From NCBI RefSeq assembly GCF_028435365.1, contig NZ_JAGTJJ010000028.1, forward strand, positions 85,444-149,443: 64,000 nucleotides of DNA, read 5' to 3'. Source of the DNA: Polyangium jinanense (lineage in GTDB: Bacteria; Myxococcota; Polyangia; Polyangiales; Polyangiaceae). Under the pieces are notes generated by a model, which was not told where the DNA came from, did no database searches, and was given only the letters and a program-made list of their open reading frames with translations. Each line of letters starts with the position of its first letter. Position 1 is the stretch's first letter. The translations under genes were made by a program, and so were the position numbers. This document shows positions 13,748 through 61,934 of this stretch, piece after piece.

Positions 13748-14060
13748 CCGTTTCGCTGGGGCGTTGCCCCAGGCCCCACCGGGGCTGTCCGCCCCTGGAC
13801 CCGGACCAGCGCAAGCGCTGGACCCGGGGTCGATGAACTGCGCGATGCGCAGTTCATCGAACGGGCCGAGGCAAGGTCAGCTACGACCCTGCCAACCAAG
13901 ACAGCCGCGCTGCCCTTTCGATGGGTGATGGGGTCCAACCGGCCCGTTGGAAGAACTGCGCGGAGCGCAGTTCTTCCACCTTCGGTCCAGGCCGTGCCTG
14001 GTCCGGGTCGAGGGGCGGATAGCCCCCGCGGGGTCCGGGGCAGCGCCCCGGCGCGGCGGC
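13748..14060. repeat. Multi-hairpin inverted-arm element, copy 1
   Basis: A 313-bp intergenic element filling the gap between two convergent genes. The left arm carries hairpins CTGGGGC/GCCCCAG, GGGGC/GCCCC and CCAGCG/CGCTGG, then a 12-bp stem GATGAACTGCGC/GCGCAGTTCATC with a 3-base loop. The right arm is the same series in inverted order. It begins with GAAGAACTGCGC/GCGCAGTTCTTC and ends with CCGGGGC/GCCCCGG. An 80-base core separates the arms. Copy 1 is inverted relative to copies 2-4. Confidence 0.85.
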
Positions 14061-49822: not shown

Positions 49823-50135
49823 CCGCCGCGCCGGGGCGCAGCCCCGGGCCCCGCGGGGGCTGTTCGCCCCTCGACCCGAACCAGGGCAAGCCCTGGACCA
49901 TTTGTGGAAGAACTGCGCGATGCGCAGTTCTTCCAACGGGCCGGTGGGACAACGTTGCCGTTCGAAATGGCAGCGCGGCTCTTGATTGGCAGGATCGTTC
50001 CTGGTCTTGCCTCGGCCTGTTCGATGAACTGCGCATCGCGCAGTTCATCGACCCCGGGTCCAGCGCTTGCGCTGGTCCAGGTCCAGGGGCGGATAGCCCC
50101 TGGTGGGGCCTGGGGCAACGCCCCAGCGAAGCGGC
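49823..50135. repeat. Multi-hairpin inverted-arm element, copy 2
   Basis: A 313-bp copy filling the gap between two convergent genes. The left arm ends in GAAGAACTGCGC/GCGCAGTTCTTC (GAT loop). The right arm starts with CGATGAACTGCGC/GCGCAGTTCATCG. The outer parts hold CCGGGGC/GCCCCGG, CCAGGGC/GCCCTGG, CCAGCGC/GCGCTGG, CAGGGGC/GCCCCTG and TGGGGC/GCCCCA stems. Same orientation as copies 3 and 4. Confidence 0.85.
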
Positions 50136-56841: not shown

Positions 56842-57154
56842 CCGTGGAGCCGGGGCGCTGCCCCGGACCCCGCGGGGGCTGTTCGCCGCTCGACCCGAAC
56901 CAGGGCAAGCCCTGGACCATTTGGGGAAGAACTGCGCGATGCGCAGTTCTTCCCACAGGCCGGTGGCAAGACCAGGGACAGCGTTGCCAGTCACGGCGGT
57001 CTTGGTTGGCAGGGCCTTCGCCGGTCTTGCCTCGGCCTGTTCGATGAACTGCGCATCGCGCAGTTCATCGACCCCGAGTCCAGCGCTTGCGCTGGTCCGG
57101 GTGCAGGGGCGGACAGCCCCTGCTGGGGTCTGGGGCAAAGCCCCAGCGAAACGG
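56842..57154. repeat. Multi-hairpin inverted-arm element, copy 3
   Basis: A 313-bp copy in the 528-base region between two divergent genes, so it cannot serve only as a shared terminator. It has the same hairpins and orientation as copy 2, with CCAGGGC/GCCCTGG, GAAGAACTGCGC/GCGCAGTTCTTC, CGATGAACTGCGC/GCGCAGTTCATCG and CCAGCGC/GCGCTGG. Outside it, 56731-56841 and 57155-57258 show no gene. Confidence 0.85.
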
Positions 57155-60531: not shown

Positions 60532-61560
60532 ATGCCCCACATCCGGATCGTCGAGGCCCACGAAGCGGACGCACCCCTCCGCGCCGTCTACGATGCCGTG
60601 CTGTCGCGCCCGATCCCCGCGGTCTACCGTGCGCCGCACGGCGGACCGGCCGGCATCCACCGCGCGCACAGTCTCGACCCGGATCTCCTCCGGATCACCT
60701 TCGCCGCGACCGGCACGTTCCACCGGGGCGACGGGCTCTCCTGGGCGGAGCGTGAGCTCATCGCCACGTCCGCCTCGCGGACGAACCAGTGCTTTTACTG
60801 AACGTCAGCTCACGCAGAGTTTCTGCGTGCCGCTTCTCAGGATGAGGCCCTCGCCGCGGACGTCGTGACGGGAACCGACCTCCCGCGCGCTTCCCCGCGG
60901 CAGCGCGCCCTGGCCGGGTTCGCGGTCGTCATGACCGAGGCGCCGTGGTCCATCGACGCCGCCGATCTCGACCACCTCCGCGCCGTGGGGTTGTCCGAGG
61001 ACGGCGTCGAGCAGGCCATCTGCGTCGCCGCGTTCTTCAACTACTACACGCGTGTCGCGGACGGCACGGGCATCACGTTCGATTACGAGTCGCCGCTGCC
61101 GCGCCTCACCATCGATCCCACGCGCGAGGCCCTGCCGCGTCCGCCGCCGAGCGACTGGAATCCCGCCGTCGACGGCTCGCGCGTGCCCGTGTTCCCCCGC
61201 CGCGCGTTTGCCCAGGGGCTGCTCGAAGAGTGGCACGCGTATCACTTCGAGCGCGACGTGCTGCTCTCGCGCCACGAGCGTCGGCTCCTCGCCCGCGCCG
61301 CTGCCGCCGAGCTGTGTGATGCCGGCGCGGTCGCCCGCTACGAGGACGCGCTCGCGCGGGATCCTCGCGAGCGCGCCCTCGCGGCGTACGCAACGAAGCT
61401 CACGCGCACGCCGTGGGCCGCCTCCGCCGCGGATGCGGCAGCGCTCCACGCGCACGGCCTCGACGATCCCGCGATCCTCGCGGCCATCACGCTGGTTGCG
61501 CACCAGAACACTTTTTCCCGCATGCACCATGGCCTCGCAGCGCTCGCGACCTCCGGATGA
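60532..61560 (+). CDS. Selenocysteine-containing AhpD-like/CMD-family peroxidase-related protein
   Basis: One frame from 60532 to 61560 is interrupted only by TGA at 60799-60801. With Sec there the product has 342 residues. Around it the sequence is SASRTNQCFY-U-TSAHAEFLR, where relatives have RxNxCxYCxxxH; the TGA replaces the second Cys of the CxxC redox site (Cys87, Sec90, His94). Downstream codons continue the AhpD/carboxymuconolactone-decarboxylase pattern (LSPRQRALAGF-like RASPRQRALAGFAVVMTEAP, then AAFFNYYTRVADG). A second related helical half lies at about 230-340. Reduction of peroxides by a CxxU site is expected. Standard gene calling would give two separate genes. Confidence 0.85.
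60811..60829 (+). promoter_or_regulatory. Candidate bacterial SECIS hairpin
   Basis: CACGCAGA (60811-60818) and TCTGCGTG (60822-60829) form a perfect 8-bp stem with the loop GTT. The loop starts 17 bases after the in-frame TGA. A small apical loop opening with G, set 16-37 bases after UGA, is the established layout for bacterial SECIS elements read by SelB. Confidence 0.75.
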
Positions 61561-61585: not shown

Positions 61586-61934
61586 CCGCCGCGCCGGGGC
61601 GCTGCCCCGGACCCCGCGGGGGCTGTTCGCCCCTCGACCCGAACCAGGGCAAGCCCTGGACTCGGGGTGGAAGAACTGCGCGATGCGCAGTTCTTCCAAC
61701 AGGTCGGTGGCAAGACCATGGAGGTGCGTTCCACGATGGCGACGGGCACGTTGCCTGTTGAATCGTCAACGCCGCGGTTTTGATGGGCAGGGTCGTCGCG
61801 GGTCTTGACCTGGCCTGTTCGATGAACTGCGCATCGCGCAGTTCATCGACCCCGGGTCCAGCGCTTGCGCTGGTCCAGGGTCCAGGGGCGGATAGCCCCG
61901 GTGGGGCCTGGGGCAAAGCCCCAGCGCAGCGCCT
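61586..61934. repeat. Multi-hairpin inverted-arm element, copy 4
   Basis: A 349-bp copy between two same-strand genes. The arms match copies 2 and 3; the core between the two 12-13 bp stems is longer (about 120 bases) and contains unrelated sequence. It includes CCAGGGC/GCCCTGG, GAAGAACTGCGC/GCGCAGTTCTTC, CGATGAACTGCGC/GCGCAGTTCATCG and TGGGGC/GCCCCA stems. No gene is visible in 61561-62042. Confidence 0.85.

Follow-up and report, generated by a model that had tools for sequence, protein, structure and literature searches.

The window analysed here is a 64,000-nucleotide stretch of the Polyangium jinanense genome, and its forward strand carries at 60532..61560 a gene for an AhpD-like protein made of two fused halves, in which an in-frame TGA is very probably read as selenocysteine (Sec). 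Translation finds one internal TGA in this frame, at codon 90 (60799..60801, + strand), and reading it as Sec90 gives a protein of 342 residues that ends at the gene's own stop, a TGA at 61558-61560. The active site then reads N-Q-C87-F-Y-[TGA/Sec90]-T-S-A-H94-A-E-F-L-R. A preliminary description, made from the letters of this DNA, had placed a single TGA at the second Cys of an AhpD-type CxxC site, with a His four residues on and a well-kept frame on both sides, and the translation agrees with it in each respect. The same ATG and the same frame are found in all five of the closest genomes, and the sequences flanking the TGA are conserved.

The active N-terminal AhpD/CMD half covers about residues 44-182 (60661..61077, + strand). 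A Pfam profile search finds PF02627 in it, and the TIGR01926 model (peroxidase-related enzyme) matches residues 44-177, with a score of 147.7 bits that passes the curated cut-off of 81.8; TIGR01926 also matches all 12 members of set A2 (E up to 1). The spacing of E75, C87, Y89, Sec90 and H94 is that of the five proton-relay residues (Glu, Cys, Tyr/His, Cys, His) given for AhpD and PA0269 in the available text of PMC3141380, with the second Cys replaced by Sec. E75, C87, Y89 and H94 are invariant across 12 two-half proteins, as are T91, H94-R99 and V111, and residues 91-111, which lie between the TGA and the restart listed in databases, are conserved. The C-terminal half, about residues 216-342 (61177..61557, + strand), repeats the AhpD fold in diverged form and lacks the CxxC/CxxU pair. 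The two halves align in hhalign with a probability of 98.9 (E 1.4e-17), and the C half keeps a lone Cys in 8 of the 12 two-half proteins and a CxxC pair in none. An AlphaFold2 (AF2) model of the protein is all-helical, with a mean predicted local distance difference test (pLDDT) of 90.1 and a predicted template modelling score (pTM) of 0.91, and its helices repeat between the halves.

Nine bases separate the TGA from a hairpin that resembles a selenocysteine insertion sequence (SECIS), at 60811..60829 on the + strand. Its letters are CACGCAGA-GTT-TCTGCGTG and it folds as predicted into a perfect 8-bp stem with a GUU loop, correctly positioned, as the preliminary description had it. Bacterial SECIS elements are described (PMC1088965, in the part available) as hairpins that closely follow the UGA and whose small apical loop contains a G, and the 8-bp stem and GUU loop have this form. 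Allowing up to 3 mismatches, the hairpin occurs at one place in the window, both strands giving the same 19 bases, where 0.02 would be expected. Its fold stands at z -2.29 against dinucleotide shuffles, and three of its six codons are uncommon ones, GCA, TTT and CGT making up 0.05, 0.17 and 0.09 of the codons for their amino acids. An Rfam search within the gene gave 7 matches at E up to 10, all far under their gathering scores.

The TGA is shared by the five closest genomes (5/5, at 89-94% identity; the loci on GTDB contigs in this range are from Polyangium sp. 15x6, sp. 6x1, P. fumosum and sp. y55x31) and by five more distant two-half relatives (at 36-49% identity). Across these ten relatives the 19-base hairpin is identical in nine and one base off in the tenth. 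A tblastn protein search found the TGA together with the identical 19-mer in 8/8 loci at 43% identity or more (L005-L008, L027-L030), and in the three of 43-57% the other codons for shared residues agree with the window at just 50-53%. This codon comparison drew on 16 genes with the exact 19-mer, 10 found by protein search and 6 by hairpin pattern; invariance of the hairpin codons is there by construction, and only the agreement of the other codons was used, the hairpin column being off by one codon (it omits H94 and counts residue 100). Within the order, 18 genomes have a locus with TGA at the site codon, and so do other genomes of the phylum. Protein searches yielded 33 TGA loci, some genes being fetched twice, and these reduce to 28 stretches distinct over 36 bases. 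The identical 19-mer is present in 10 of the 28 and reaches genes whose proteins are merely 32-33% identical (L112, L036). A scan of 377 genomes of the phylum for TGA, nine bases and the hairpin gave matches in ten genomes, one in each, all in AhpD-like genes (one of them truncated), three being assigned by lying inside genes already found by protein search; a reversed control pattern had no match in the same genomes. At stem pair 5, 5 of the 28 distinct stretches have G-C in place of C-G, and stems are longer in distinct TGA genes (32) than in distinct Cys genes (15; p 1e-5), a comparison whose 32 stretches include some pattern-fetched loci that the count of 28 excludes.

Some individual loci vary further. 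L101 (G298) carries the swap at pair 5 and has a perfect stem again, with the loop GGA, and in L031 and L032 (G009, G011) the stem has 6 pairs and sits one base off, the loop being TTT. L030 (G113, complement 1146-1517) keeps the TGA and the hairpin but is cut 37 residues past the TGA and runs on into unrelated sequence; it is a decayed gene or an assembly join.

The Sec machinery was assessed in the genomes of relatives, of which the five closest are G001-G004 and G152. All five have selC, with a tRNA-Sec score of 71.3 bits (cut-off 47), and selB over cut-off. The two genes adjoin; in G004, for example, selC lies at C24:169824-169917 (+) and selB at 168599-169765 (-). The cut-offs for SelA and SelD are both passed in 13 of the 14 TGA-bearing genomes searched, among them the five closest, which thus hold all four of the genes that the preliminary description had proposed to look for. 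Among 183 genomes of the order, a tRNA-Sec of at least 59 bits is present in 16 of 18 with the TGA form, compared with 2 of 12 Cys-only genomes (p 1.2e-4; with G175 counted, 3 of 12, p 6.4e-4) and 37 of 165 other genomes (p 3.7e-8). The threshold of 59 bits is our own choice, matches of 47-58 bits and about 84-90 nt being taken as other tRNAs, and the classes come from 50 genomes with a protein match, 30 of which had the locus fetched and classed while 20 with weaker matches were left unclassed. In G009, G011, G054, G134 and G113 selD carries one in-frame TGA, so that SelD is itself probably a selenoprotein there; none of the five closest relatives has such a TGA in selD.

Cys versions of the site, which the preliminary description had also proposed to seek, are present in 12 Cys-only genomes of the order and among the two-half proteins themselves. 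The first protein search returned 61 proteins, 52 of them at 49% identity or more and the other nine distant, with Cys at the site. A profile built from 12 full-length two-half proteins then found 16 further ones, of which 4 have CxxC, 8 SxxC, 3 CxxS and 1 CxxA; the residue at the UGA position is Cys in 12 of the 16, Ser or Ala in 4 and Trp in none. This disproves our initial view that two-half proteins with Cys do not exist. A single active-site Cys (CxxA, CxxS or SxxC) is seen in P0066-P0070, P0072 and P0074-P0079, and these one-Cys relatives suggest, as far as sequence can tell, that the chemistry has changed in part of the family. A quickly built tree of 65 rows, with support from the Shimodaira-Hasegawa-like approximate likelihood ratio test (SH-aLRT) only, places the two-half proteins together in a single group of 28 rows (support 99), the truncated L030 included. 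Sec and other states are interleaved within this group, with at least eight changes between Sec and not-Sec over the whole tree; rows P0078 and P0079 were cut at the wrong place and bear a false site letter, the alignment giving Cys for both. A plasmid search matched 287 records, all below 60% identity, and none covers 80% of the query.

Taken together we consider it very probable, from the comparison of sequences, that the locus is a genuine TIGR01926-type AhpD-like selenoprotein gene of a fused two-half form, and this rests on the conservation of the hairpin and not on the hairpin alone. Several results weigh against it. When the gene was resampled synonymously with the window's own codon usage, a stem this long or longer arose in 678 of 20000 resamplings (3.4%) and an energy this low or lower in 1069 of 2000, which is ordinary for the codon usage, and over the whole window Rfam reports no family at its gathering score. 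Six of 32 distinct TGA stretches are without a good hairpin in this register. The TGA-bearing genome G041, of 2.8 Mb, has no tRNA-Sec, selA, selB or selD; tRNA-Sec is likewise missing from G008, which like G041 belongs to the order, and from G418 outside it, and SelB is not found in G489 at E 1e-55 or over cut-off in G427 and G308. One of the 52 close database homologues, P0010, runs through the site with Trp in its database translation. The hairpin by itself is weak evidence, and the argument of the preliminary description that a random nonsense mutation would hardly come with both a preserved frame and a hairpin was overstated for the hairpin taken alone; it is the conservation of the hairpin that decides the matter.

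The TGA might instead be a true stop, the locus then being a nonsense pseudogene or encoding a 231-residue protein restarted at the GTG at 60865. A fragment of this kind is what databases list for the locus (60865..61560, + strand): P0003, from Polyangium jinanense, begins at residue 112 and is 98.7% identical to the protein of the window over its 231 residues. Entries that begin 3' of the TGA make up 51 of the 52 close homologues, and one relative, L030, is a truncated copy. Their projected starts, however, vary from residue 101 to residue 152, the same TGA recurs in ten two-half relatives, and residues are conserved both 5' of the TGA and between it and the GTG. With the identity of the hairpin and the presence of the Sec machinery also speaking against a stop, we reject a restart at the GTG, hold a true stop of either kind to be highly improbable and regard the 231-residue entry as a mis-annotation. 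Decoding of the UGA as Trp, or its reading through by ordinary suppression, has P0010 in its favour, whose Trp could perhaps stem from a gene caller that applied a code with TGA as Trp. Against this, the gene's own terminator is a TGA, the 16 further full-length two-half proteins have Cys or Ser/Ala and never Trp at the position, and tRNA-Sec, SelA, SelB and SelD are all present in the five closest genomes; Trp read-through is accordingly rejected and ranks as extremely improbable.

If the locus is a selenoprotein gene, as we conclude, the hairpin at 60811-60829 would recruit SelB-GTP-Sec-tRNA(Sec) and the UGA at 60799-60801 would be decoded as Sec. The predicted fold is an intramolecular pseudo-dimer, with the relay residues in the N half and the catalytic pair lost from the C half; the latter would take over from the partner subunit of an AhpD homodimer and may also have a binding function. 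The protein most likely reduces organic hydroperoxides or a peroxiredoxin-type partner through a Sec-Cys cycle. In such a cycle Sec90, beside H94, would be oxidised, form a selenenylsulfide with C87 and be reset by a thiol reductant, with H94, Y89 and E75 assisting the redox cycle of Sec90 and C87.

The protein does not represent a new selenoprotein family, because CxxU AhpD-like (TIGR01926) selenoproteins are already in print. In the portions available, PMC1088965 reports AhpD-like CXXU proteins (27 sequences), and PMC13188914 lists an "AhpD-like protein, TIGR01926, CxxU" and an "AhpD-related protein, NF041238, CxxU"; NCBIfam contains the latter as NF041238, "AhpD_rel_CFYUT". The preliminary description was thus right that AhpD-like selenoproteins were known in principle, and of its proposal of a new selenoprotein what stands is the selenoprotein gene together with the novelty of its fused variant and its occurrence in myxobacteria. 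With the TIGR01926 CxxU selenoproteins of both papers the window protein shares the family model, the CxxU site and a hairpin with a G-bearing small loop, whereas the TIGR01926 model describes one AhpD domain of 178 positions and the window protein has a second, degenerate half fused behind it. NF041238 has the CFYUT motif in common, and residues 66-185 of the window protein match its positions 215-337 locally, but the model, 357 positions long, has its CxxU domain towards the C terminus and the window protein has it in the N half. Membership in NF041238 is rejected, the score of 79.8 bits falling short of the cut-off of 175. The single-domain peroxidase-related AhpD structures (6k40, 2oyo, 2prr, 2pfx, 3c1l) have one domain and no fused C half, and the single-domain AhpD proteins described in the accessible text of PMC3141380 and PMC4674687 have a Cys dyad in place of the Cys-Sec pair. 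Fused AhpD proteins of Corynebacterium and Comamonas (PMC11429811) likewise consist of two AhpD-like halves, one of them cysteine-free, but their active half is the C-terminal one, and Sec is not mentioned in the passages seen of that paper. What is new is therefore the fused form with an active N half and a degenerate C half, its occurrence in Myxococcota, and the finding that 51 of the 52 close homologues in databases start after the TGA. A literature search on myxobacterial selenoproteins found no title on the subject among the matches listed, one of the papers returned being a selenoproteome review and most subscription papers lying outside the search.

The order of the halves recalls the sestrins. 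The predicted fold superposes on Sestrin2 across both halves, with Sestrin2 Cys125 and Leu128 at the places of C87 and Sec90, and the sestrin-like layout of two AhpD-like halves, an active N and a dead C, is that of the window protein. This layout is not specific, since a control fused AhpD protein of the opposite order superposes on Sestrin2 as well, its model being less confident (pLDDT 79 against 90). Superposition consequently does not establish kinship, and the likeness, judged from models, appears to be one of architecture. With E values up to 10 allowed, the sestrin family PA26 (PF04636) does not match the window protein; it matches 1 of 12 members at E 0.0025 and is over its cut-off in none of the 377 genomes. 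Its first part matches AhpD-like genes in G344, G307, G117, G418 and G485, with a best E of 9.5e-7 that is under the cut-off. DDYDY, given in the passages seen of PMC11429811 as the GATOR2-binding motif on the hinge of the sestrin C half, does not occur in the window protein translation. Membership among the sestrins is rejected on these two counts, the unreached PA26 cut-off and the missing DDYDY, and no title on a Sec-bearing sestrin was among the literature matches listed. That sestrins and the two-half family descend from one fused ancestor, which would make this a bacterial sestrin by descent and is compatible with its being a selenoprotein, is decidedly unlikely. Hardly more likely is the idea that the fused AhpD proteins of myxobacteria, whose N half is active (with a Sec, Cys or one-Cys site) and whose C half is catalytically dead, correspond in domain order to sestrins and preserve a state of the sort that gave rise to them. 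On this view the C half would already be a module for binding a ligand or partner, and would link the reduction of hydroperoxides to a signal. Sites of the forms CxxU, CxxC, SxxC, CxxS and CxxA all occur within the two-half clade, the last two having a single Cys, as in Sestrin2.

The locus is flanked in each of the five closest genomes by a divergent DUF2378 gene and a methyltransferase gene upstream and by a GNAT gene downstream, and within the DNA examined around it a P450 gene was seen in two of the five. No redox partner gene was seen adjoining the locus, and no tRNA genes were found in the window. The window also has four pairs of a near-perfect palindrome, GAACTGCGC-NNN-GCGCAGTTC (13835-13973, 49910-50046, 56929-57066 and 61673-61844). 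The two partners lie 116-151 bases apart, and the pairs sit within imperfect repeats of greater length (102-164 nt at 56.8-57.2 kb and 61.6-61.9 kb). As a guess, they may be paired elements of the repetitive extragenic palindrome or bacterial interspersed mosaic element (REP/BIME) kind, dispersed between genes.

The locus indicates that selenocysteine serves in a fused redox protein of soil myxobacteria with large genomes, and the database entries for this protein are fragments that begin after the Sec codon. The same 19 letters recur in genes whose proteins are down to about 32% identical, so that this unusually constant hairpin can serve to trace further members. Within one clade a single active-site position swaps between Sec, Cys, Ser and Ala, which offers a natural series on the benefit of Sec, and because the order of the domains is sestrin-like, the proposal that sestrins arose from fused AhpD proteins can be tested from the bacterial side.
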